This document shows positions 1,797 to 49,890 of a stretch of DNA of 55,889 bases, in pieces. Position 1 is the first letter of the stretch. Every line of letters begins with the position of its first letter. Both the position numbers and the translations under genes were made by a program. The DNA is from Thermincola ferriacetica (GTDB taxonomy: Bacteria; Bacillota; Thermincolia; Thermincolales; Thermincolaceae): contig NZ_LGTE01000021.1 in NCBI RefSeq assembly GCF_001263415.1, positions 1 through 55,889 of the forward strand, written 5' to 3'. The notes under the pieces were generated by a model. It did not search any database, was not told the origin of the DNA, and saw only the letters and a program-made list of their open reading frames with translations.

Positions 1797-2609
1797 TTAC
1801 CTGAATATTGTCTTAAATATGTTCCACATACGTGAACTACAAGTATTTTTATATCCTTCGTTCCAAACAATAATCACAGAAATGTTATCGTTTCCTCCGT
1901 TATCATTGGCAATCCGTATCAAACGGTCCGCTGCGCCTGGCATATTTTCCATAATAGAAGTGGCCAAACAATGGTGAGGCACCTTATTATAAAGTCCATC
2001 GCTACATAATAAGAAAATGTCGCCTTTTTCCACCTTGCCCCAACTTAAAAAAGGCGATATTTCCTGGCGTATTCCCAAACACTGGGTCAGAATATTGCGG
2101 TTAGGATGATATAAAGCTTCTTCGGAAGTGATTTTACCGAAACGCACTTGTTCCGCCACTACAGTATGGTCTATCGTTAATTGGGTAAGCTGCTTATCCC
2201 GGCTTTTCAAACGATATACCCGGCTGTCCCCGATATGGCATAAAACATAGGTATCCCGAACTATAAAAAGAGCGCTCAGTGTTGTTCCCAGTTTAATTCC
2301 CCGTTCTTGGCCATAGTGGCAAATGTTACTGTTTATATGTCGAAACTGTTTTCCTAAATCATTGCCTATGCTTGTCTGATCCGGGTGGCAGATATTTTTA
2401 AAATCCAATTGCTCCCACCAGTGTTTCAGAGCTTCTACGGCAATTTCGCTGGCCTTTTCTCCTTCCGCCATTCCTCCCATACCATCGGCGACAACAAAAA
2501 GACCAAATTCTCCTATACCTTCTGCTTCCCCTATCCTGATAAGTAATTTATCCTGGTTATTAACTTTTCTTTTCCCAATATCACTGCCCAAATCATAAAA
2601 AAACTTCAT
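1797..2609 (-). CDS. PP2C-type serine/threonine protein phosphatase
   Basis: The protein has 270 residues from ATG 2609, which has GGAG six bases upstream; a TTG 15 bases earlier is less likely. All PP2C metal-binding landmarks are visible: NNQDK, VVADGMGG, GDSRVYR, LLCSDGL and a late GGNDNISVIIV. It should remove phosphate from Ser/Thr residues in a Mn2+/Mg2+-dependent way in the cytoplasm. It is the last gene of the Tad pilus operon, 24 bp after an FHA-domain protein that would read phosphothreonine. No partner Hanks-type kinase is encoded in the window. The final 25 residues (NTCSSRMWNIFKTIFR) extend past the domain. Confidence 0.92.
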   Translation of the reverse strand: MKFFYDLGSDIGKRKVNNQDKLLIRIGEAEGIGEFGLFVVADGMGGMAEGEKASEIAVEALKHWWEQLDFKNICHPDQTSIGNDLGKQFRHINSNICHYGQERGIKLGTTLSALFIVRDTYVLCHIGDSRVYRLKSRDKQLTQLTIDHTVVAEQVRFGKITSEEALYHPNRNILTQCLGIRQEISPFLSWGKVEKGDIFLLCSDGLYNKVPHHCLATSIMENMPGAADRLIRIANDNGGNDNISVIIVWNEGYKNTCSSRMWNIFKTIFR

Positions 2610-2633
2610 AATTATCTCCGGCAAACTAATTTT

Positions 2634-4196
2634 TTATTTGGAGCAAAATAGGTAATCTACATCGGCAAAAGTAATTTTATCGTTTTCTCGCAATGCGTAC
2701 TGCTTATTACTAATCAATTTATCACCATTTATAAAGGTACCGTTTCTGGAATCGAGATCCACGATATAATAAACGCCGTCAATACACTTGATTTCCGCAT
2801 GAGCCCGACCGATACTTTTGTTTGCTATCACCCAGTCACAAGTTTCCTTATTTCTGCCAATAACCATAGTTGATTTATCCAGGATTATTTTGTCTCCACC
2901 ATTTGCAGCCTTTAACACAGGGTAAGTATTCTCAACCAACAGGGTAGTTTCGTCACTGTAATCTTCCAAAAGGGTTGTCTCGTCGCGATCATAATTGGGT
3001 GAACCGGTTGCCGGCTTGGGAGGCAATGGAGAAATAACAAGATCGGCTAAAGTTGTCTTGCGTTGGGGCTGAGTTTCGATGTCCACTTTTGACATATTCA
3101 GGTGGTTAAAGGTTTGGGGTAAATTGTCATCTTTTTGATTAACACTGCTGCCGCCTTTTGCAGAAGCCCTTTTAACCTTCCGGTAATAAAAGCTTAGAGT
3201 AATAACGAAAATTAAAAGTCCACCGGCAGCAGCTAATTCTTTATTGGTAAAATTCTGCAGAACCCTTGCGAAATCAATACCACTGTTGGAAATAATTGCC
3301 GACACCACTGAAATGACCGCCATTACACCTAAAGCTTTAGTCCTGACTGAATTTTTATTATTTGTAGGAACAGGTGGTTGATTATTTATGCGTTTCTCAG
3401 CACGCATTTTTTTAACAGGTTGGGGCAGTACGGTTCTTTGAAAGGAAGGCTTTGGCGAAAAATTTAATCCGTTATAAAGCGGTATAACGGGCGCCCGTTT
3501 TAGCTGTAGTTTAGGCGTAGGTGTTGCTTCATCCTGCGTGGGCATAGGTTCTGTCCCTGGTCTGGGAGGGAAGTTCCTGATATTATATTGTTCAGGGTTT
3601 TCCTCGGGCAGTTTATCGTCAACTCTAATTAATTTCATTAATTGTTTGCGAAATTCCGGTAAATTGAAATCTTCTGCTTTAAGCAACTGCAAAAGCCGTT
3701 GCACAAAATTGTCCCCCGTATCAATATTAGCCTTGCCAACCAGTAAATCTGTAACAAAGGTTTTGAAAGTCCGAGTAATATCCTGTTCTAATTCTAACGG
3801 TAGATAGGCCAGAAATACTTCCCCGGAATCAGGATTGATATAAATTAAATTGTCATCAAGCAGGAAGGAATTGCTGTTTAGAAAATATTTTTTACTTTCC
3901 AAAATCGGACTTAAAATCCTTTCCAAAATTAAAGTAAATTCTGTTTTGCCTATTTTCTGCCTCTTTAAATAATTAGCCAGACTAATCAAACCGGTTAGAT
4001 TATAATACAGTTTGGCATGTGCATTCTTTTCCCTTATCTCCAGGTTTAAGACCCCGGGAATTTGGTTGTTAGCAATCATTTCGGCCTGAAATCCGATAAT
4101 TTGGTCAGCCTTAAGGTTCTCTTTATCCAACTCCAGGTAGCTTCTGCGCAAATCGGCAACATACTCCACCTTAAAATCAAATAAAGTGTTTTCCAT
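2634..4196 (-). CDS. DUF6382 + membrane + FHA domain protein
   Basis: This 520-residue protein has three parts. The N-terminal ~190 residues resemble the DUF6382 domain (includes SLANYLKRQKIGKTEF and LIYINPDSGEVFLAYLPLE). A proline-rich linker leads to two short hydrophobic stretches at about 288-305 and 320-338. A C-terminal FHA domain lies at about 445-515 (MVIGRNKETCDWVI, SIGRAHAEI, DLDSRNGTFING). FHA domains bind phosphothreonine peptides. Its place between the prepilin peptidase and a PP2C phosphatase suggests it couples phosphorylation to the pilus machinery. This is inference; the N-terminal domain has no assigned function. Confidence 0.85.
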   Translation of the reverse strand: MENTLFDFKVEYVADLRRSYLELDKENLKADQIIGFQAEMIANNQIPGVLNLEIREKNAHAKLYYNLTGLISLANYLKRQKIGKTEFTLILERILSPILESKKYFLNSNSFLLDDNLIYINPDSGEVFLAYLPLELEQDITRTFKTFVTDLLVGKANIDTGDNFVQRLLQLLKAEDFNLPEFRKQLMKLIRVDDKLPEENPEQYNIRNFPPRPGTEPMPTQDEATPTPKLQLKRAPVIPLYNGLNFSPKPSFQRTVLPQPVKKMRAEKRINNQPPVPTNNKNSVRTKALGVMAVISVVSAIISNSGIDFARVLQNFTNKELAAAGGLLIFVITLSFYYRKVKRASAKGGSSVNQKDDNLPQTFNHLNMSKVDIETQPQRKTTLADLVISPLPPKPATGSPNYDRDETTLLEDYSDETTLLVENTYPVLKAANGGDKIILDKSTMVIGRNKETCDWVIANKSIGRAHAEIKCIDGVYYIVDLDSRNGTFINGDKLISNKQYALRENDKITFADVDYLFCSK

Positions 4197-4210: not shown

Positions 4211-4765
4211 TTAATTAAACAAAATGATGCCTTTAAACTGCAACAGGGTAATTATATACTGTATCATGGTTCCCGGTACTATGGCTGTGGAGAAAATAAA
4301 TTTGGAACTTTTATCGTCATCACCGCTATACTTGGCCAACCGGCCGGTTAAAAAAATATATTTAAAGTAATTGCATACATCCTGCATGCGTCTGATAAAC
4401 ACTCTTTTTTTTAGCAAAATGACCAAGGCAATAACACCGCCTGTATATACTGAAAAGACAAAGCTATAGGCTGTAAAAGGCAGCCCCATAACCGCCCCGA
4501 TGGCAGCAAACAGTTTGATATCGCCCGCTCCCATAACATTGATGCGGTAAAGCACCATTAGGACTGCAACGGGAACAAGCCATCCCTTGATGGAGAACAA
4601 GAGCCCTGTCAAGCCACCTTCCATAAGGTTAGTTGCCAGTCCCAATACCGCTGCCGGTAAAGTAATAAAGTTTTTAATCTTTTGCTCCCTGATGTCATAA
4701 TACAGGGCAAGGCCTAAGATGATGATTAATATCAAAGATTTCCCAATAAAACAAACTGTCACCAT
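4211..4765 (-). CDS. type IV/Flp prepilin peptidase (A24 family, TadV/CpaA)
   Basis: The protein has 184 residues with several membrane helices. The two catalytic aspartates of A24 peptidases are visible in YDIREQKIKN and in the GxGD motif (NVMGAGDIK). It lacks the N-terminal methylase domain of full-length PilD, as is usual for TadV/CpaA. It should cleave the leader of the Flp pilin and the TadE-like pseudopilins encoded upstream in the same operon. The C-terminus (residues 120-184) contains an extra loop rich in charged residues. Confidence 0.9.
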   Translation of the reverse strand: MVTVCFIGKSLILIIILGLALYYDIREQKIKNFITLPAAVLGLATNLMEGGLTGLLFSIKGWLVPVAVLMVLYRINVMGAGDIKLFAAIGAVMGLPFTAYSFVFSVYTGGVIALVILLKKRVFIRRMQDVCNYFKYIFLTGRLAKYSGDDDKSSKFIFSTAIVPGTMIQYIITLLQFKGIILFN

Positions 4766-4776
4766 TATTCACCTGC

Positions 4777-5403
4777 CTATTTGTCGTCCACCCATGACCT
4801 TTCTATTGCCGTATTGGATAAAGTCAGCTCTTTTTTAAAAAACGGAAAAAGCAGTTTCACCTTATACTCCACCACCAGCGCTACATCTTCATTGTTTAGC
4901 TCCACGTTATTTACCAGACCGTTACTGCGGGATAGATTGAAAGGGTTAAACATAACAGCCTTAACAATTTTAAAGCTATCGTCCCTTAAGGAACCCAGGG
5001 GATACATTTCCCTTATCTTTTTCTGCGCATATACTTTAACGGCAGGCTCAATCAGCGCCATTGTATCTTCCTTTATTTGGTTGCCAACCACCGCTAGAAA
5101 ATCTGAGGTTACTGCCGCTTTGATCTGCTGCGGCAAATCAAGGGTAGCATTGGTTGGGTCCATAAGTATTTTTTGTGCCAAGTCTTCCATACCGGCGGGA
5201 TCTGATCCCCTGATAAATTTAAGCGGATAAGAATGGACCGCAATCTGTTTGGCCGTTTGACTGACCGCATGGTCCATGGCAATGTACACCATACATACAT
5301 GCACAAAATTTATCAGGGTTAACATCAGCACCAGGAAAAAGGGGAAAACAATAGTTGCTTCCAAAGTGAGGCTGCCATTTTTGTCTTTAAAAAAATTTCT
5401 CAT
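4777..5403 (-). CDS. TadE-like pseudopilin
   Basis: The chosen ATG at 5403 has GGGTG seven bases upstream. An in-frame ATG at 5427 would overlap the previous gene by 11 bp. The N-terminus FFKDKNGSLTLEATIVFPFFLVLMLTL is the TadE signature: a charged stretch, a Gly, then a hydrophobic helix with Glu near its start. The rest (about 180 residues) is extracytoplasmic with no recognised domain. TadE proteins are processed by the prepilin peptidase (next gene) and support Flp pilus assembly. It is one of two TadE-like proteins here. Confidence 0.82.
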   Translation of the reverse strand: MRNFFKDKNGSLTLEATIVFPFFLVLMLTLINFVHVCMVYIAMDHAVSQTAKQIAVHSYPLKFIRGSDPAGMEDLAQKILMDPTNATLDLPQQIKAAVTSDFLAVVGNQIKEDTMALIEPAVKVYAQKKIREMYPLGSLRDDSFKIVKAVMFNPFNLSRSNGLVNNVELNNEDVALVVEYKVKLLFPFFKKELTLSNTAIERSWVDDK

Positions 5404-5416
5404 CAAAATCACCCGT

Positions 5417-7282
5417 TTAGTAGCCATATTCTACCCGCTTGGTTATATAACACCGGCCATCCTTAACTGTTGTTCCAAAGGGCCCGTGTTCCATATTACG
5501 AATGCCGGCCAAAGGTAAAAACCATAACCTTATGGAAACCTCTGCACTACCCGTTAAAACCGTATTTAGATTTTTCGGGTCCACATTGTTACGCAACCGG
5601 ATTATTTCCTGAATCCGCCTTAATTTGTTGTCATCATTATTTATAAATAATAACAACCGCAAATGTTCTTTGTAGTTGGTCCTGATATCATGCAGGGGAT
5701 TACCAAAAGCGTAGGTCGGGTCATACATCTCGGCAATGGCTACGGTTTGGCCCAGCAGCAACTTCAGCGTATCCACACCCGCATGCGTAACTCCCATGAT
5801 TACAGAATAGATAAACCTGGCAACGGGTTCGGCAGGAGCAACTTTGCTGAAACAAAGATAAGCCATGGTATCCAGTCCAAAACGAATGAGGTATATTTCT
5901 CCTACTGCCCTTGCCCTGGGATAGGCTCCACCGAAGGTTATGTATTCCGCTTCACTGTTCCAATATTTATACATAAAATTTTTACTTGCCGCAGGCTTGG
6001 TCAGATAGGAGAAATGCGCCAGGACATATTCGTTGATATATAAATCATCCCGCATGCCCGTAAACACGTGCTCAATGGAAACAACGGCATTCATCTTTTC
6101 AGCAATTTGTTCGATATCTTGGCCGTTCTTATCTTCAAAATCGTCTACTCTTGACGTAATGTCCTTAGGCTCAATAATCCCTTCCCCTTCCAGAATATTT
6201 TTTTGAATTATTTGGTTTTGCAGGTCGCTTTGTTGCCGCCTAAGCTCATTTGCATAAGCTGATGCGCTAACAGTTTCATACTCAGAAATTACTACATTAA
6301 CAGCCGTCAACCCAATTCGTTCATACCGGTCATGGTCCAATGCATCCAGGCTGGCAGCAATTTCCCTGTTCACTTTTGTCATTTCTCGCTTGATATTGAG
6401 CTGAATTCTTTGCACTTCTGCATTAATCGATTTTTCACTTTCTTCAACAGCCATGTCCATTTCGTCTTTTCCCTCGGTCGGGCCCATATACCCGCCTTCA
6501 ATTAATTTACCCCTTCCCTTATCTACCTCCCGGGATAACCGTTGGCAGCGCTCTAAATCGCCGCTGATTTCTTCCTTTAACAGCTTTATTTCCTCTTTGA
6601 CCTTGGCCATCTCTTTCCGGATGGATTTTCTTGTTTCGGCATCCTGCGCCCGGGCCAGTTCTTCCTCCAGCTCTTTCAGGCGTTCCCTTTTGCTAATCAG
6701 GTCCTTTTTTCTCCGTTCTATGTCCCGGCCAATTGTATCAATCTCCCTGGACTTCTTTTTTATAGTATCCAGGCTTTTTCGTTCCTGGTTTTTCGCCTTA
6801 AAAAAGTTAAACATTTTGCCTATTACCTTGATCTTATCTGTAATAAACTGGCCCAACTCGATGGGAGCCCGATATTTCATGTCTTCCAAAATTTGCTGTT
6901 TTAATACCGCTTCTTTGTCTAATGAATTGCTTACATCTGCTTTGGAACCTTCATACCGGTAGTCCAGCAGGTTGAAATTCTGGTCCGCTGAAAAAGTTAA
7001 ATTGGCCTTGACATATTTTGCAAAATCCTGGTCATAATTCGCACCTTTATAGGTAAATAAACCAAAATCCTGTTTTGTAGAAGTATGGTAATCAGCCAAT
7101 ACGGAACAGGCAGCGGCATTGGCTACCCTGCGCAACTGATTCTGAGCTGTTTTTATCCGGGCCAAATCAATAAATAGCCCAATAAAAATCACCATTATCA
7201 CAAAAACAATAACCAGGTAGATAGTTACCGTCCCTTTTTCATTTTTCAGAAACCTTTCCAAAACACAGTTTATAATATACAT
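5417..7282 (-). CDS. TadG-like / DUF5702 Tad-associated protein with coiled coil
   Basis: The protein has 621 residues. The N-terminus RFLKNEKGTVTIYLVIVFVIMVIFIGLF is a TadE/TadG-like anchor, followed by DLARIKTAQNQLRRVANAAA, which resembles the region after the helix in TadG. Residues about 165-310 are a long charged coiled coil (RRKKDLISKRERLKELEEEL). The C-terminal half is globular with a hydrophobic patch near 490. It matches the DUF5702 type found in Firmicute tad loci. It probably sits outside the membrane, anchored by its N-terminal helix. Its exact role in pilus assembly is not known. Confidence 0.75.
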   Translation of the reverse strand: MYIINCVLERFLKNEKGTVTIYLVIVFVIMVIFIGLFIDLARIKTAQNQLRRVANAAACSVLADYHTSTKQDFGLFTYKGANYDQDFAKYVKANLTFSADQNFNLLDYRYEGSKADVSNSLDKEAVLKQQILEDMKYRAPIELGQFITDKIKVIGKMFNFFKAKNQERKSLDTIKKKSREIDTIGRDIERRKKDLISKRERLKELEEELARAQDAETRKSIRKEMAKVKEEIKLLKEEISGDLERCQRLSREVDKGRGKLIEGGYMGPTEGKDEMDMAVEESEKSINAEVQRIQLNIKREMTKVNREIAASLDALDHDRYERIGLTAVNVVISEYETVSASAYANELRRQQSDLQNQIIQKNILEGEGIIEPKDITSRVDDFEDKNGQDIEQIAEKMNAVVSIEHVFTGMRDDLYINEYVLAHFSYLTKPAASKNFMYKYWNSEAEYITFGGAYPRARAVGEIYLIRFGLDTMAYLCFSKVAPAEPVARFIYSVIMGVTHAGVDTLKLLLGQTVAIAEMYDPTYAFGNPLHDIRTNYKEHLRLLLFINNDDNKLRRIQEIIRLRNNVDPKNLNTVLTGSAEVSIRLWFLPLAGIRNMEHGPFGTTVKDGRCYITKRVEYGY

Positions 7283-7311
7283 TCCTAAAACCTCTCACCC
7301 CATTTAGGGGA

Positions 7312-8109
7312 CTAGTGATTATTTTGGGTGCAGACTTTACACTGCCTGTACCCCATCTCTGTTGCCACCGCCGTTGATTCCAGAACCATCAGGTTTCCGT
7401 GCCTGCTAATTCTTTGTACATACCGGCAATTGGGGTCAAAATGAAAAACCTTGTCTTCGTAAATATTTTTCGTGATATAAACCCTGCCTCCGTTATTTAA
7501 ACTGTCCTGCCGCTTACCCAGCAGGGTCAGATACCCTTTCAACCTGTTCAGGTAATCATATAGAATATCCACATTTCTTATGTACTCCACAGGTTCGGCC
7601 ACATCAGCCTGAGCCCTGGCCTGTATTTGATTGCCGAGGCACTTTGCTGCCCAAGCAGGCATGAGCACATTTTCATTGATTGAAGCCGTTACAGTTCTCT
7701 TGATAAGCTGATTATTATAGTTTATCTCAATTATCTGGTCGTTTTGGAATACCCCGTAAGCAAGGTGCTCGCCGGCCAGGCCGGTAGCTTCAACAACTTT
7801 TGCAACTGCCAGTGAGGAATTATCAGAGTCCTGGAAAATCCGCCAATACAGACCGTTATTTTTTAACTTCCCTCCCAAGGCGCCTGTTTCCAGGTCCTTA
7901 AAGCTGTTATTCCAGGTGGCGGCTCTTTGGGCGGAAGTGTACACAGCAGCATTGAGGACAACCAGTTTTTCAAAAATAAACATGGAAACAAACAATAGAC
8001 AAAACAAAATGAACAAGATTAACGGAAAAACAATAGTGGCTTCCAGGGTAAAACTACCTTTTGAACTGGCAAGGGCCTGGCAAAAATAAATACGCATTTT
8101 TGTTAACAT
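7312..8109 (-). CDS. TadE-like pseudopilin with C-terminal Cys/His cluster
   Basis: The protein has 265 residues. The N-terminus ASSKGSFTLEATIVFPLILFILFCLLFV is a TadE-type processing and membrane region. The C-terminal 55 residues are distinct: YITKNIYEDKVFHFDPNCRY, then GYRQCKVCTQ, giving H-x4-C and C-x2-C. This looks like a small metal-binding or disulfide-stabilised module outside the cell. That module is not usual in TadE. It lies between the Flp pilin gene and the large TadG-like gene. Confidence 0.8.
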   Translation of the reverse strand: MLTKMRIYFCQALASSKGSFTLEATIVFPLILFILFCLLFVSMFIFEKLVVLNAAVYTSAQRAATWNNSFKDLETGALGGKLKNNGLYWRIFQDSDNSSLAVAKVVEATGLAGEHLAYGVFQNDQIIEINYNNQLIKRTVTASINENVLMPAWAAKCLGNQIQARAQADVAEPVEYIRNVDILYDYLNRLKGYLTLLGKRQDSLNNGGRVYITKNIYEDKVFHFDPNCRYVQRISRHGNLMVLESTAVATEMGYRQCKVCTQNNH

Positions 8110-8143
8110 ATGGATAACCCCAAACTATATAAATCATTTGGTA

Positions 8144-8176
8144 CCGCCGGGCAGTTAAAACCAACCTGCCCGGCGG
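8144..8176 (-). terminator. strong stem-loop after the Flp pilin gene (attenuator or mRNA stabiliser)
   Basis: A perfect 11-bp stem (CCGCCGGGCAG / CTGCCCGGCGG) with an 11-base loop lies 12 bp beyond the flp stop codon. No T-tract follows on the minus strand, so complete termination is unlikely. Such hairpins often raise the level of a short upstream mRNA, here the pilin, relative to distal genes. Confidence 0.55.
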
Positions 8177-8187
8177 AAATCCGGTCA

Positions 8188-8379
8188 TTATTTCGCTTCT
8201 GTAACTGAAGGTAGGCCTTTATCAGTATTGTTAATCTGAGCAATTTGATCGTTGTACCATTTAGTAAGACTTTTTCTAAACGAAAAAGCCAAACCAACAA
8301 TAACGACCAGAATAATTACCATTTCTACGGTTTCAAGACCATCCTCATCTTTAAAAAAGTTTATCAGCAGCTCTTTCAT
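8188..8379 (-). CDS. flp: Flp-type pilin
   Basis: The protein has 63 residues: LINFFKDEDGLETVEMVIILVVIVGLAFSF, then a short polar tail. The charged leader, a Gly before the mature start, Glu at about +5 and one hydrophobic helix are the features of a class IVb Flp pilin. It should be cut by the prepilin peptidase and polymerise into the pilus. Its size and its position between tadC and tadE support this. The tail ends GLPSVTEAK. Confidence 0.85.
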   Translation of the reverse strand: MKELLINFFKDEDGLETVEMVIILVVIVGLAFSFRKSLTKWYNDQIAQINNTDKGLPSVTEAK

Positions 8380-8410
8380 CTTGTCACCCCCTTCACAACT
8401 TCCGCTACAA

Positions 8411-9295
8411 CTACCTGCCCATCGTCATGATGGCCGGAGCCAGAACTATAATTGCTACAGCAATAAACACCATAACCATGGGAAAAACCAGCTTTGACGA
8501 TGCTTCTTCTCCCTGTTTCCGGGCAATATCCTTTCTTTTCTCCCATGCTTCCTGGGCCAGTGTCCTTAGCACATAAACAATGTCCCCGTTTCCGCGATTT
8601 AAATTCTGAATCATAGTTGATACAAACCGGGTTATTTCCGGTATCCGGCATCTCCGGGCAAAATCTTCGTAAGCCTGGTGAATAGGTTTACCGGCGCCTA
8701 TATCTGCCAAAACATAGTTCATTTCTTTGTATAGCGGCCTGTCCGGGTCACTGTCATGTACAACCTTATGGACAGCCGATGAAAAAGGTAATCCGGCGTT
8801 TATCAGTAAGGCCAGGGTATTAATAAACCCGGGCAGATCAATCAAAATCTGTCTTTTTTTCATCTTCAGCTTCTTTTCCAAATCCTTATCAACCCAATAA
8901 TACAGAAGAGCTGATAATATTAAGCCAAAAACCAAAAAAGAGTATTCTGCCTCACCGGCCAAATAAGTGATGCTAAAGAAGAAAGCGCTTGCTGTCATCA
9001 AGGCTGCTTTTTGAGCGATATGGACAGCAAAATAGGTCCAGGTTTCACGCTGGCCAAACAGCTCAGCAATCCGGGCTCTAATTTTACGGTCGTAACCCGA
9101 GTTGAATTGATAGGGTAACTTTTCCGCCAGAAAAAAACCTATCGGGGCAAGAAACGCCAGTTTAAAACCGTACCTGTTGATTTCTTCGGCAAAATCACGG
9201 TCTTTGTCTTTAGCCAGAAAATATAAGCCTGCAAACAAAGCTAACAAAACCAAAGCCAATACCGGCTTGAGCACCAAAAGCAGATGATTCACCAT
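8411..9295 (-). CDS. tadC: Tad pilus inner-membrane platform protein TadC
   Basis: The protein has 294 residues from the ATG preceded by AAGGTG, six bases away. It contains a type II secretion system F domain at about 145-285 (LPGFINTLALLINAGLPFSS, then GIPEITRFVSTMIQNLNRG-like text) and hydrophobic segments at the N-terminus, middle and C-terminus. It overlaps the end of tadB. TadB and TadC form the membrane platform on which the TadA ATPase acts. Confidence 0.9.
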   Translation of the reverse strand: MVNHLLLVLKPVLALVLLALFAGLYFLAKDKDRDFAEEINRYGFKLAFLAPIGFFLAEKLPYQFNSGYDRKIRARIAELFGQRETWTYFAVHIAQKAALMTASAFFFSITYLAGEAEYSFLVFGLILSALLYYWVDKDLEKKLKMKKRQILIDLPGFINTLALLINAGLPFSSAVHKVVHDSDPDRPLYKEMNYVLADIGAGKPIHQAYEDFARRCRIPEITRFVSTMIQNLNRGNGDIVYVLRTLAQEAWEKRKDIARKQGEEASSKLVFPMVMVFIAVAIIVLAPAIMTMGR

Positions 9296-9297
9296 AA

Positions 9298-10134
9298 TCA
9301 CACCTTAATGTCAAAGATTTTTTTGGATAGCACTGAAGCGGCAATCAAAATTCCAAGGGCCAGCGCCATTAACAGGTAACCTTTAAATGAAGTATATAAG
9401 GAATCCATATAACCGGAGCCACCAAATTTGACCAGACCAATGAAGACTATGGGCATGATATTGAGAATTTTTTGTTCGTATTTTTGCTTTGTTAACAGAA
9501 GCTCTATCTCCTGACTGATTTCTATTTTGTCGCTAAGGATGGCGGAGGTGTTTTTTACCACCTGCACAAGGTTCCCGCCTGTTTTTTTGCAAATAACCAT
9601 CACTTCGGCAAAGTTTTTGATATCCTCTAAACCGGACCTTTCGGCAAAATCCAGCAAAGCCGTTTCAACAGGTTCATTTAGTTCAATTTTCCTGCATATG
9701 TATCCGAATTCTTTTATGATGTAGGTGTTTTCGTCCGGATAAAGGACCCGCAAGTCATTAAGAGCAGTTTTAAAAGCACTTTCCAAAGACCTACCCACAC
9801 CCAGGGACGAAGTTAAAGAATAAAGTGCATCTTTAAACTGTAACTGAAGTTCCGCTTTTCTCTTAGTAATTAAATGCTGGACTTTATATTTTGGATAAAA
9901 AAAACCACCTAACGAGAAAATGAAGGCGATAATTAAATTGCTGAAAAAAATTAAACCTATGCCAAACAATACAATGGCCGCTATAATTGTGTACTTGGTT
10001 TTCTCTTGCCGGGCCATATGGTATTCATTATAGTCAATTAAATCTGTCGCCGCAGGATTTTCGCCCAATATTGCTTTTTCACTGACAGCAATGGACTTCC
10101 GTAGTAACTCTCCTTCGTTTTTCCAATAGAGCAT
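9298..10134 (-). CDS. tadB: Tad pilus inner-membrane platform protein TadB
   Basis: The start is ATG 10134 with GGAG nine bases upstream; TTG 10143 is the alternative. The product of 278 residues has two N-terminal membrane helices (about 50-85), a T2SS F domain at about 100-225 (KDALYSLTSSLGVGRSLESA, KKTGGNLVQVVKNTSAILSD) and two C-terminal helices. It is the partner of TadC and lies directly between tadA and tadC. Function follows from family and order. Confidence 0.9.
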   Translation of the reverse strand: MLYWKNEGELLRKSIAVSEKAILGENPAATDLIDYNEYHMARQEKTKYTIIAAIVLFGIGLIFFSNLIIAFIFSLGGFFYPKYKVQHLITKRKAELQLQFKDALYSLTSSLGVGRSLESAFKTALNDLRVLYPDENTYIIKEFGYICRKIELNEPVETALLDFAERSGLEDIKNFAEVMVICKKTGGNLVQVVKNTSAILSDKIEISQEIELLLTKQKYEQKILNIMPIVFIGLVKFGGSGYMDSLYTSFKGYLLMALALGILIAASVLSKKIFDIKV

Positions 10135-10153
10135 ATTTTCCAACTCCAGACTT

Positions 10154-11386
10154 CTAGTCTTCCAAGTTTAATCCCGCCATTTTCAATTTCAACCTGTGTA
10201 AAAGCTTACCGGTTCGTTTTAAGTTTCCGATTACCCTCTGGTCCACTTCGCCTTCTTCCTGGAAGCGGAATAAGGGATTTAGGACGATGTCGCCATGGGC
10301 AAAGCCTTCTACCTCACATATTTCCAAAACCTTACGGGTTCCATCCCGCAGGCGGCCGAGGTGAATAATAATATCTAACGCAGCGGCTATTTGCTTGCGA
10401 ATGACTTCAACAGGAAGAGGTGCGGCGCTAAGAACCATGGTTTCCAACCGGCTGAGCATATCCTTGGTAGTATTGGCATGACCCGTTGATAAAGAGCCTT
10501 CATGCCCCGTATTCATTGCCTGCAGCATATCCAGGGCTTCCGCTCCCCTGACTTCCCCGACAATAATCCGGTCCGGTCTCATTCTTAGCGAAGTTTTAAT
10601 CAAATCCCGGGTGGTTATTTCGCCTTTCCCTTCGGTGTTGGCATTTCTGGTTTCCAGACTTACCAGGTTCTTGATGTTTTTCAACTGTAGCTCGGCAGAA
10701 TCCTCGATAGTAATGATCCTTTCATGCGGTGGGATAAAATCGGAAAGGGCGTTTAGAAAAGTGGTTTTTCCCGAACCCGTGCCACCGCTAACAAAGATGT
10801 TATACCTGGCCTGTACCAGTTTTTTTAATAGTTCTGCCGCTTCTTCCGATAAAGACCCCAGCTCGATTAATTTTTCCACTGTTAAATGCTGCTCGGGAAA
10901 CTTCCGGATAGTCATGGTCGGCCCCCGCAACGCTATAGGGGGTAGTACCACGTTTACCCTGGACCCGTCCGGAAGCCTGGCATCTACTATGGGCATAGCC
11001 TCGTTTACAACCCTGTTTACCCTGGAAACTATTGACTGAATTACATTTTCCAGCTTTTCTGTGCCTTCGAATTTGATATCGAGTTGATAAGTCCGGCCGT
11101 TTTTCTCAATGAAAATGTTATCCGGTCCGTTAACCATGATTTCAGTAACCGCCGGGTCTTCCAGCAGCGGCTGAAGCACATCCAGCCTTCTCATGGAATT
11201 GAAAACCCCGGCTATCAGTTCCTGCTTTTGCAAAAGCGTCAGGTAATTTTCTTTGCTCTTTTCAAAAACTACCTGGGTAATCACATCTTTAATCTCTTCA
11301 TCTTGCAATTCTTTTGAAAGGTCTAGCCTGTATCCGACTTCATCCCTAATAAGTTGGATCATATCTTCCTTGGCAATATCCACCAT
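10154..11386 (-). CDS. tadA: Tad secretion ATPase TadA/CpaF
   Basis: The protein has 410 residues, normal for the family. Walker A is GGTGSGKTT. An Asp box follows (IITIEDSAELQL), then Walker B (RMRPDRIIVGEVRGAEALDM) and the His box GHEGSLSTGHAN. The N-terminal domain contains LLEDPAVTEIMVNGPDNIFIE, typical of CpaF. It is a cytoplasmic hexameric ATPase that powers Flp pilus extension on the TadB/TadC platform. Gene order places it after tadZ. Confidence 0.96.
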   Translation of the reverse strand: MVDIAKEDMIQLIRDEVGYRLDLSKELQDEEIKDVITQVVFEKSKENYLTLLQKQELIAGVFNSMRRLDVLQPLLEDPAVTEIMVNGPDNIFIEKNGRTYQLDIKFEGTEKLENVIQSIVSRVNRVVNEAMPIVDARLPDGSRVNVVLPPIALRGPTMTIRKFPEQHLTVEKLIELGSLSEEAAELLKKLVQARYNIFVSGGTGSGKTTFLNALSDFIPPHERIITIEDSAELQLKNIKNLVSLETRNANTEGKGEITTRDLIKTSLRMRPDRIIVGEVRGAEALDMLQAMNTGHEGSLSTGHANTTKDMLSRLETMVLSAAPLPVEVIRKQIAAALDIIIHLGRLRDGTRKVLEICEVEGFAHGDIVLNPLFRFQEEGEVDQRVIGNLKRTGKLLHRLKLKMAGLNLED

Positions 11387-11412: not shown

Positions 11413-12510
11413 TTACCCAACCGCTTTAGCCAACTGATACAAACTGTTGCTAAACTCACGTGTGCTGTCAAAAATGTTGCGCCCATTGACGGAATGCCAT
11501 AACCCCTGAACAACAGGAATTGTAAAGTTGGTTTGCAATTCCTCACTTAATTGGGTATCCACATTACCGTAATGTTTGTTTAACACCGGTACCAGCTTGT
11601 CAAAAAACCCCGTTTTTTCCGCAATACCTGTTATCCTCATCTGGTTTAAAAAGCTTTGCGTCTTGAAGTGGCACAGACTATCGGGGGCCTGAACCAACAC
11701 AACACTGTCGCTTGCTTCAAAAACCGCAACAGCCCGTTCATCAGCGGCAGCATCCATATCTACCAGTATAAAGTCATATTTGCCCAATTGCCTGAGATTT
11801 TGGAAAAGCAAACGCAAATCATCAGCTTTTAATTCCGAAAGTTCCAGAAAACATTCAGGAGGCTCAATAAAATCAATGTTCAAGGAAAGGTCTTTGGTTT
11901 TGTACATTTCCAATTTAACCGGCAGTACCGCCACATTTTCCTTCAGGCTTATTAATATATGAGTCATGGCATCATTTCCATTGCATACCAGCCCGAAAAC
12001 CATTGAATTGATGCTTTCAAAACTCAAACACAATACTGCGTTTCCAAAATCACCGAGTTTAGAAGCCAGGCCCAGGGTAAGGGATGTTTTTCCCACGCCG
12101 CCGGCCGGTGAATAAACAGAAACAACCTTTGTCCTGGCGCATCCTTTAATCAAATCAGATACAGACGAATTCTTTTCAGCATAAAAATTTAGCAACTGGC
12201 TGACCAACTGGTCCCCCGGCTGGTATTTGTTAATACTGCAGCCTTTTCCCTGACAGATGAGGCTTCCGTCAGATAGGGTAACAATCATGCAGACATTTTT
12301 ATATAAATCGGGTTCATCAATTAGAAAATTCGGGTGAGCCAATAATATATCAACTTTATCCCGACCGGAGCTTAAAAATTCCCTGAGCAGGTCAGCTCTG
12401 GTAAAAGAGACAACCCTTATGCGTGACGTGTAGATTGAATTAATGTATTCAGCAACCTTATCTACATATTTACTATCATGGTCGGCCAGGACCAGGCGAA
12501 TTTTATACAA
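11413..12510 (-). CDS. tadZ: Tad localisation ATPase TadZ/CpaE (MinD/ParA-like)
   Basis: The start is TTG 12510 with GAGGTG seven bases upstream. The N-terminal ~120 residues form a receiver-like domain (RLVLADHDSKYVDKVAEYI). A MinD/ParA-type ATPase follows with a deviant Walker A (SPAGGVGKTSLTLGLA) and FILVDMDAAADERAV as Walker B. TadZ/CpaE proteins position the pilus machine at a cell site. It is the first gene of the operon, behind the candidate operator at 12584-12603. Confidence 0.88.
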   Translation of the reverse strand: MYKIRLVLADHDSKYVDKVAEYINSIYTSRIRVVSFTRADLLREFLSSGRDKVDILLAHPNFLIDEPDLYKNVCMIVTLSDGSLICQGKGCSINKYQPGDQLVSQLLNFYAEKNSSVSDLIKGCARTKVVSVYSPAGGVGKTSLTLGLASKLGDFGNAVLCLSFESINSMVFGLVCNGNDAMTHILISLKENVAVLPVKLEMYKTKDLSLNIDFIEPPECFLELSELKADDLRLLFQNLRQLGKYDFILVDMDAAADERAVAVFEASDSVVLVQAPDSLCHFKTQSFLNQMRITGIAEKTGFFDKLVPVLNKHYGNVDTQLSEELQTNFTIPVVQGLWHSVNGRNIFDSTREFSNSLYQLAKAVG

Positions 12511-12574
12511 CTGAAATCACCTCTAAATATCCTGGGTTCTGAACTTAGAATATAAAATTGCCACCTTAGCCTCA

Positions 12575-12603
12575 ATTATAAAGCGATGATATATCGATGA
12601 TAT
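12575..12603 (-). promoter_or_regulatory. tad operon promoter with 11-bp direct repeat (candidate wHTH operator)
   Basis: On the minus strand a TATAAT (12580-12575) lies 65 bases before tadZ, without a good -35 hexamer. In its place the plus strand shows CGATGATAT twice (12584-12592 and 12595-12603), an 11-bp period. OmpR-type winged helices bind such head-to-tail repeats, and the divergent gene encodes one. This suggests an activator-dependent promoter. The promoter and operator are read by eye. Confidence 0.5.
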
Positions 12604-12634
12604 TGCAAAAACCCCGTCAAATGTCCGCTATGTA

Positions 12635-12663
12635 TTAAATTTCCTGGCAATACATGGTATAAT
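12635..12663 (+). promoter_or_regulatory. promoter for FHA/wHTH regulator gene
   Basis: A perfect TATAAT (12658-12663) lies about 60 bases before the start codon. The matching -35 (TTAAAT, 12635-12640) is weak. It is divergent from the tad promoter about 55 bp away. Confidence 0.5.
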
Positions 12664-12722
12664 GATAACTACTGACAAAATATAATCTTTATATCCGGCG
12701 TGGATTGGGGGAGGAAAAAGCT

Positions 12723-13418
12723 GTGCACAATATATTCCTTTATATTATTCAGGGAGAGCCTTATAATTACGCTACAGTCATATACCTGCCCGGTCACCGA
12801 ACCCTAATTGGACGTTCCTGGAACGGGCATCAACCAGATATTTCTTTTAACAGTTTGTTAATATCAAGAAAACACGCCGAAATAGTCCTCGAAAAAGACC
12901 GTTGCTATATAAAAGATTTGGCCAGTAAGCACGGAACCCATGTAAATGGCCGCGATATCGGGCAAAACCAGGCCTGTCCCCTTAGCCACGGAGACAAGAT
13001 TGACCTGGCCCGGGGGGAAGTGAAATTTATCTTTAACAACTTACTCGAAGCCGATGCCGGGGAAACTGTAGAACTTGGTGAAGCTCTTCTGCGGCAGCGC
13101 CATAGCGGCTCCGGTACTGATTCCCTCTGCATTGTTCCCGAGCGGAGAGAGGTTTTTGTAAATGACCAACCGGTAAACTTGTCCGGCAAAGACCTGGACC
13201 TGCTGCTACTGCTGTACGATAACCGCGGCAAAGCAGTAAATTATGATGAAATTAAGAGAAAAATCTGGCCCGAACGGCAAATAGACATTACCAACACCCC
13301 GGACGTGGGTAATGACGAAATTACTGCCCTTGTTTACCGTTTAAGAAAAAGACTTGGCAACTGCGGGCAGTATATCGTAAGCATTCCAAGATACGGCTAC
13401 ATGCTGGAGTCAAAATAA
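12723..13418 (+). CDS. FHA domain / OmpR-type winged-helix transcription regulator
   Basis: The start is GTG 12723, eight bases after GGGGGAGG; a TTG 18 bases upstream overlaps that site. The FHA domain lies at about residues 20-100 (RTLIGRSWNGHQPDI, ISRKHAEIVL, DLASKHGTHVNG). The C-terminal ~95 residues are a Trans_reg_C winged helix (LSGKDLDLLLLLYDNRGKAV, EITALVYRLRKRLG, IVSIPRYGYML). It should bind DNA under control of a phosphothreonine ligand. It is the only gene between the divergent Tad operon and yqeY, so the Tad operon is its likely target. The domain order is the reverse of EmbR. Confidence 0.88.
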   Translation: MHNIFLYIIQGEPYNYATVIYLPGHRTLIGRSWNGHQPDISFNSLLISRKHAEIVLEKDRCYIKDLASKHGTHVNGRDIGQNQACPLSHGDKIDLARGEVKFIFNNLLEADAGETVELGEALLRQRHSGSGTDSLCIVPERREVFVNDQPVNLSGKDLDLLLLLYDNRGKAVNYDEIKRKIWPERQIDITNTPDVGNDEITALVYRLRKRLGNCGQYIVSIPRYGYMLESK

Positions 13419-13446: not shown

Positions 13447-13896
13447 TCAGCTCAACAATTCTCTTACTATTTCGTTTACCAGCTTGCCGTCTGCTTTTCC
13501 TTTTACCTTCGGCATCAGTTTACCCATTACTTTACCCATATCTTTGGGTCCTGAAGGATTAACTTCAGCAATTACTTCCTGTGCTAATTTCCTAATTTCG
13601 TCCGCAGACAGTTGCTCGGGGAGGTATTTCATAAGAATGGCGATTTCTTCTTTTAGGGTATTGACTATATCATCGCGGTTTGCTCTTTCGTATTCCGCAA
13701 TGGCATCCCGTCTTTGTTTAACTTCCCTTGCCAAAACTTCGATAACTTCTTCTTCGGATAATTCCCTTTTTTTATCAATTTCGATATTCTTGATAGCCGA
13801 CCTGGCCATACGGATAACGCTTAGCCTAAGCTTCCCGTTTTCCTTATCCTTCATGGCGGCCTTCATATCTTCGTTTAACATGTCCTTAAGGGACAT
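13447..13896 (-). CDS. yqeY: GatB/YqeY domain protein
   Basis: The protein has 149 residues and matches YqeY over its full length (LNEDMKAAMKDKENGKLRLS, EYERANRDDIVNTLKEEI, GPKDMGKVMGKLMPKVKGKA). The family resembles the tRNA-binding tail of GatB; its role is not settled. The ATG has AGGAGG upstream. It follows rpsU by 19 bp, the usual Firmicute rpsU-yqeY arrangement, and ends at the shared terminator. Confidence 0.95.
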   Translation of the reverse strand: MSLKDMLNEDMKAAMKDKENGKLRLSVIRMARSAIKNIEIDKKRELSEEEVIEVLAREVKQRRDAIAEYERANRDDIVNTLKEEIAILMKYLPEQLSADEIRKLAQEVIAEVNPSGPKDMGKVMGKLMPKVKGKADGKLVNEIVRELLS

Positions 13897-49731: not shown

Positions 49732-49890
49732 TGTCAACGCCGGAATTAAATTGACCCACTTTAGCCGGAATAGTTTTGACCCACCCCGGCTTCATGTAGT
49801 TGCCAGTATGGCATAAGTGCCGGTCTTTATGCGGTCTTTATGCGGTCCTTAAGACGATAGCTGTTGCCACGGGGTTTTTCCTGTCTTCTT
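49732..49890 (-). mobile_element. IS21-like element remnant (right end)
   Basis: It starts TGTCAACGCCGGAATTAA and carries two subterminal copies of a TTGACCCAC-type unit, as in IS21-family ends. On the minus strand, 49827-49883 encodes KPRGNSYRLKDRIKTA and a stop, resembling an IstB C-terminus. Only the end is left. 49890-49933 holds nothing further. Confidence 0.5.

Follow-up and report, generated by a model that had tools for sequence, protein, structure and literature searches.

A tandem 11-bp repeat running into the Tad promoter of Thermincola ferriacetica as a candidate operator of a divergent FHA-winged-helix regulator

Several described systems lie close to the arrangement considered here. 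The PHO box is built from a pair of direct repeat units of 11 nt each (PMC4415409). Binding sites of PhoB overlap the -35 position (PMC3348028), and PhoB activates only where the spacing requirements, which are strict, are satisfied (PMC10294691). For WalR/VicR-type regulators, sites that overlap the promoter go with repression (PMC4168254). An OmpR-type DNA-binding domain and an FHA domain are combined in one protein in EmbR of Mycobacterium tuberculosis, which is regulated by PknH and linked to Ser/Thr kinase signalling (PMC4601284). The Spo0A box, found in promoters such as that of spoIIG, has the documented core TGTCGAA (PMC3485338).

In this study, a 55,889-nucleotide stretch of the T. 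ferriacetica genome (the window) was analysed, which harbours a Tad pilus operon and, transcribed divergently from it, the gene of a predicted DNA-binding protein. The intergenic region resembles the PHO box and other operators of the OmpR/PhoB family (PhoB, PhoP, KdpE) in having two direct repeats of 11-bp period, a promoter without a -35 element and a PF00486 winged-helix gene next door. It differs from them in that the array lies nearer to the -10 hexamer, has TATAAT in phase with the repeat and is not conserved; it is a candidate site. The hexamer-N5-hexamer layout with period 11 in a Firmicute is likewise shared with the WalR/VicR operators, but the site described for that group is TGTTATagaacTGTAAT at gcrR (PMC4168254) and not TATCAT, and the neighbouring regulator has no receiver domain. 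The genes concerned are as follows.

1797..2624, minus strand: PP2C-type phosphatase gene at the distal end of the Tad operon
2634..4196, minus strand: gene for a DUF6382-FHA protein of the Tad operon
4211..11386, minus strand: tadA, tadB, tadC, TadE-like genes and prepilin peptidase gene
11413..12510, minus strand: tadZ, with which the Tad operon begins, its TadZ identity confirmed
12723..13418, plus strand: gene for a regulator with FHA and OmpR-type winged-helix domains, with a GTG start after GGGGGAGG; the longest open reading frame starts at 12705

The first nine genes of the Tad operon are common to five relatives, whereas a PP2C match within the compared stretch of the operon was found in only one of the relatives (G004). 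The DUF6382-FHA gene is present in the Tad operon of 6/6 genomes compared. Because it is kept across these operons, a phosphothreonine-type reader (FHA) belongs there whether or not the FHA-winged-helix gene is near.

The divergent regulator has 231 residues, with an N-terminal FHA domain (1.2e-18) followed by a C-terminal Trans_reg_C domain (6.5e-10, PF00486), and the domain search gave neither a receiver nor a BTA domain. The divergent FHA/winged-helix gene without a receiver that the original prediction had read from the DNA is thus borne out by domain matches. EmbR provides a functional precedent, together with PknH, for an OmpR-type DNA-binding domain and an FHA domain in one protein. On the other hand, EmbR is a SARP with an N-terminal winged helix, a central BTA domain and a C-terminal FHA domain, and membership of the present protein in the EmbR/SARP family was rejected because its domain order is reversed and the BTA match is absent. 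Across the aligned orthologues hardly any variation is seen in the recognition-helix region (...ALVYRLRKRLG), and a shared binding site is therefore expected. In the FHA domain the GR and SRxHA motifs are kept. The usual NGT loop is replaced by SKHGT (HGT) in all aligned orthologues, and this phosphopeptide loop may alter phosphothreonine binding.

Between the divergent tadZ and regulator genes lies a gap of 194 bp, which contains the following elements.

12575..12580, minus strand: TATAAT, the probable -10 of the promoter that drives the Tad operon; it doubles as a third, imperfect array unit and lies 3 bp from the proximal repeat copy
12584..12592, no strand assigned: proximal copy of the repeat, CGATGATAT, which reads ATATCATCG on the minus strand and precedes the Tad -10 by 4-12 bp
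12595..12603, no strand assigned: distal copy of the repeat, CGATGATAT, which precedes the Tad -10 by 15-23 bp and lies over the would-be -35 position
12603..12608, minus strand: TTGCAA, the sole -35-like hexamer (4/6 against TTGACA), with a 22-bp spacer
12658..12663, plus strand: TATAAT within TGGTATAAT, an extended -10 likely serving the FHA-winged-helix gene

Positions 12570-12610 read TCAATTATAAAGCGATGATATATCGATGATATTGC. The two copies form an exact 9-mer repeat with period 11, and the best 11-bp unit has 10/11 identical bases; a third occurrence of CGATGATAT in the window is on the other strand, at 13667. On the minus strand the region reads TATCAT-CGATA-TATCAT-CGCTT-TATAAT, so that the -10 hexamer takes the place of an imperfect third unit in the same phase (match 12573-12592, 3 mismatches). 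The repeat described beforehand, two CGATGATAT copies with an 11-bp period, is confirmed exactly, and with the third in-phase unit it is somewhat richer than had been stated. A reading of the region as an inverted repeat was discarded, the only candidate being an unconvincing 17-nt, 82% pair 74 nt apart. A search for matches in phage records returned only weak chance ones of 27-35 bp.

Chance expectation was estimated by dinucleotide shuffling of the 194-bp gap. Shuffled gaps contained an exact repeat of a 9-mer with period 11 in 0.3% of cases (P about 0.003), with periods 10-12 in 0.65% and with any spacing of 10-33 in 4.4%. One further exact 9-mer repeat with period 11 is present in the 55.9-kb window, at 49821. 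When up to three mismatches were allowed in the 3.18-Mb genome, the tandem site was found here (in two registers) and at one other place; a backwards control pattern gave two matches in the same scan.

These numbers bear on the explanation that the repeat is an 11-bp replication-slippage duplication in the AT-rich promoter spacer, with no regulatory role, and that sigma-A RNA polymerase reads the Tad promoter with other inputs. At any spacing of 10-33 the chance is 4% for a single gap, a genome has many gaps, and copies that are nearly identical (10/11) are what a recent duplication leaves, whereas natural OmpR-type half-sites are usually degenerate. Against slippage speak a period of exactly 11 bp, the location between a winged-helix gene and its divergent neighbour, and the TATAAT as a third unit in phase.

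The geometry of the Tad promoter was then compared with that of activated promoters. When spacers of 15-19 bp were scanned for the TATAAT at 12580-12575, no hexamer exceeded 3/6 against TTGACA, so that an ordinary sigma-A -35 was ruled out at these spacings, and the promoter scanner did not call a Tad promoter at 12580-12575. The claim of a minus-strand TATAAT lacking a -35 at normal spacing therefore held. The distance from the tadZ start to the TATAAT is 70 bases, a value similar to the about 60-67 of the relatives. An alternative -10, TATATT at 12554-12549, is without a good -35.

The original prediction had taken the repeat for the site of a class II activator of the OmpR/PhoB type, which would replace the missing -35 and recruit RNA polymerase to the Tad operon. 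The distal copy does cover the -35 position, as PhoB sites do (PMC3348028), and no -35 is found at normal spacing. In Pho-box promoters the units occupy positions about 11-28 bp before the -10. The copies here, at 4-12 and 15-23 bp, are about 5-7 bp, or about half a helical turn, nearer to the -10 hexamer. Since PhoB depends on a strict spacing (PMC10294691), a repeat some 5 bp too near to the -10 fits activation of the PhoB type poorly. It would be workable only if TATATT at 12554-12549 were the real -10, but that hexamer has no good -35 and the TATAAT position is the one kept in the relatives. Thus, of the proposal that an OmpR-type tandem site activates the Tad promoter, the 11-bp period stands, whereas activation in place of a -35 is not supported with copies so near to the -10, and this is the least probable of the readings considered here.

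Because the -10 hexamer itself forms a third unit of the same phase, the array suits a promoter-occluding operator better than a class II activator, in line with the repression exerted by regulators of this type from promoter-overlapping sites (PMC4168254). The single most likely reading, to which we assign a probability of roughly 0.4, is that the repeat is a candidate operator of the neighbouring FHA-winged-helix protein and probably serves to repress or switch Tad transcription. Two or three 11-bp units, TATCAT-N5-TATCAT-N5-TATAAT, would be occupied head-to-tail by the OmpR-type winged helices of the protein. As the array spans the spacer and extends into the Tad -10, the bound protein would most likely block or remodel the promoter, by repression or as a switch, and an effect on the regulator's own gene is possible as well. 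Through the FHA domain this control would be coupled to Thr phosphorylation by a Hanks-type kinase and to the PP2C of the Tad operon. The sequence, the domains, the phasing, the uniqueness of the site in the genome and the kinase linkage of orthologues are observations, from which binding, the direction of regulation and phospho-control are inferred. A functionless duplication by slippage is almost as likely as the operator reading.

Because the recognition region is shared, every hexamer was tested for tandem pairs of 11-bp period in the sequences upstream of FHA-winged-helix genes (in the case of G276, upstream of the kinase gene preceding the regulator gene). TATAAT-like pairs were present in 7/11 regions, compared with 0/11 at periods 10 and 12. 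Among other upstream regions of the same loci, a pair was present in 7/87, of which 3 are the other side of FHA-winged-helix intergenic regions. A score of at least 7 was reached in 4/2000 AT-matched background sets, a figure to be read with the overlap between the AT-rich hexamers of the motif and the -10 consensus. With a tied tandem model, the leave-one-out procedure usually gave best support to the T. ferriacetica region (genome G000) and that of its relative G005. Against null sets, 4/6 runs exceeded about 99% of sets and 2/6 were not significant. More seeds gave P about 0.02 for period 11, chance values for periods 9, 10 and 14, and P about 0.07 for period 12, for a signal found after several looks and coming mostly from G000 and G005. 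The orthologue upstream regions thus hint at a tandem TATnAT enrichment with 11-bp period, clearest in these two genomes; weak as it is, and short of proof, the enrichment counts in favour of binding by the regulator and against slippage.

The conservation of the gene pair was surveyed in the order of T. ferriacetica, which comprises 10 genomes (a class-level search gave the same 10), with G001-G006 as the relatives compared. The FHA-winged-helix gene is present in G000, G005 and G006. A tadZ gene is present in G000-G004 and G006, while G005 has a truncated remnant of it. The two genes are neighbours only in G000, while the regulator genes of G005 and G006 sit elsewhere. In a survey of the phylum the regulator was found at E below 1e-18 in 9/398 genomes, and one extra orthologue, G482, came from the orders of G177, G276 and G106. 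No Tad genes were found beside the FHA-winged-helix gene in G106, G276, G177, G152, G354, G111, G482 or the Fictibacillus loci L032, L036 and L040. Plasmid-borne copies of the regulator were limited to one distant Paenibacillus match. The pairing of the FHA-winged-helix gene with the Tad operon is therefore not conserved and is known from a single genome.

The repeat itself was not found upstream of tadZ in six relatives, no column around it could be trusted when the tadZ promoters were aligned with MAFFT, and the CGATGATAT half-site did not occur above chance upstream of the FHA-winged-helix gene in 14 other regions. The expectation that the repeat would accompany tadZ in genomes carrying the same regulator gene thus largely failed: the pair is adjacent in G000 only, so that the refuting condition of a conserved pair without the repeat does not apply cleanly, and the indirect forms of the test failed, the tadZ promoters of the relatives lacking the repeat. 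Its absence both from these promoters and from the FHA-winged-helix genes of other lineages agrees with slippage; the half-site missing before other orthologues and the single-genome pairing count against the operator. As a separate observation, tandem arrays of a different kind, with repeats of about 20-21 bp (for example ATTTATGCTCGCTCGCAGTG and TGAGCGATTCGAGAGTTTTA), are present upstream of the FHA-winged-helix gene in Fictibacillus and G354 (L040:5664-5860, L033:5614-5805, L074:1179-1239).

The tadZ promoters of several relatives carry an element of another type. In G001-G003 the tadZ gene, and in G005 the tadZ remnant, are preceded by TGACAGGGTTCGACAGG or TTGACAAGTTTCGACAG (the latter in G005). 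These elements contain a perfect Spo0A box, TTCGACA (= TGTCGAA), at -95 to -86, with a TATAAT about 20 bp on. Some relatives' promoters thereby resemble Spo0A-box promoters, with TTCGACA about 20 bp from a good -10, whereas the window promoter has no recognisable Spo0A box. A box was sought there and rejected, with no match at up to one mismatch and a best match of 5/7 (P 0.95). A Spo0A-family match is present in 10/10 genomes of the order, 9 of them over the cut-off, this genome included. The conserved tandem element before tadZ (L050 of G003, L051 of G002, L052 of G001 and L054 of G005) suggests that Tad pili in the order may be Spo0A targets. In G005 the element is kept without a full tadZ, before a remnant with a 76-codon open frame (L054 around 1501, G005:C46:45477).

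One further stretch of the window promoter bears on this element.

12610..12619, minus strand: TGACGGGGTT, 9/10 against TGACAGGGTT of the relatives' Spo0A-box element (P 0.0065 for a match chosen after the fact)

The second half of the relatives' element, TTCGACA, is not kept in TGACGGGGTT. The Tad promoter could accordingly descend from a Spo0A-controlled ancestor in which the upstream TGACGGGGTT is still functional, the repeat being divergent spacer or the site of some other regulator, for instance another protein of the OmpR type. The perfect boxes of G001-G003 and of the G005 remnant, the Spo0A-family matches throughout the order and the 9/10 bases retained here argue for such a descent. 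However, the box itself is lost in the window, and the Spo0A-box element is absent before tadZ in G004 and G006; we consider this explanation unlikely. That the Tad promoter left Spo0A control here and maybe came under the newly adjacent FHA-winged-helix regulator is coherent but unproven.

The neighbourhoods of the orthologues offer a possible source of the signal that the regulator would read. Hanks-type Ser/Thr kinase genes adjoin the FHA-winged-helix gene in five lineages: divergently in G106, directly upstream in G276, directly downstream in G482, as a divergent PP2C-kinase pair in G152, and downstream in G354. In the present genome three kinases are over the Pfam cut-off, all on other contigs and none in the window. 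The orphan kinase of contig C18 shares 59% identity with the kinase of G152 and 60% with a second kinase close to the gene in G276, and would be the candidate for phosphorylation read by the FHA domain. The suggestion that pilus synthesis responds to Thr phosphorylation is thus supported at the level of family context, by orthologues beside Ser/Thr kinase genes in five lineages, but not by a kinase gene in the window.

Taken to its full extent, the operator reading would have a one-component OmpR-type regulator, with FHA in place of the receiver, bind the three-unit 11-bp array after taking over a Tad operon whose relatives are Spo0A-controlled, so that pilus synthesis would answer a circuit of Hanks-type kinase and PP2C for which the operon itself holds some of the genes. 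This whole chain is unlikely. If the array is an operator, it would be the first binding site for the patchily distributed FHA-winged-helix family, which stands beside Ser/Thr kinases in several lineages, and Tad pilus expression would be tied to Thr phosphorylation. A literature search returned no paper on a link of Tad pilus expression with Thr phosphorylation. The candidate operator is a single-genome, unproven but testable lead.

At several of the orthologous loci (L076, L077, L079, L080 and L093), in several lineages, FHA-winged-helix regulators occur together with Hanks-type kinases, some with an N-terminal zinc ribbon, and the combination appears to constitute an unnamed phospho-signalling cassette.
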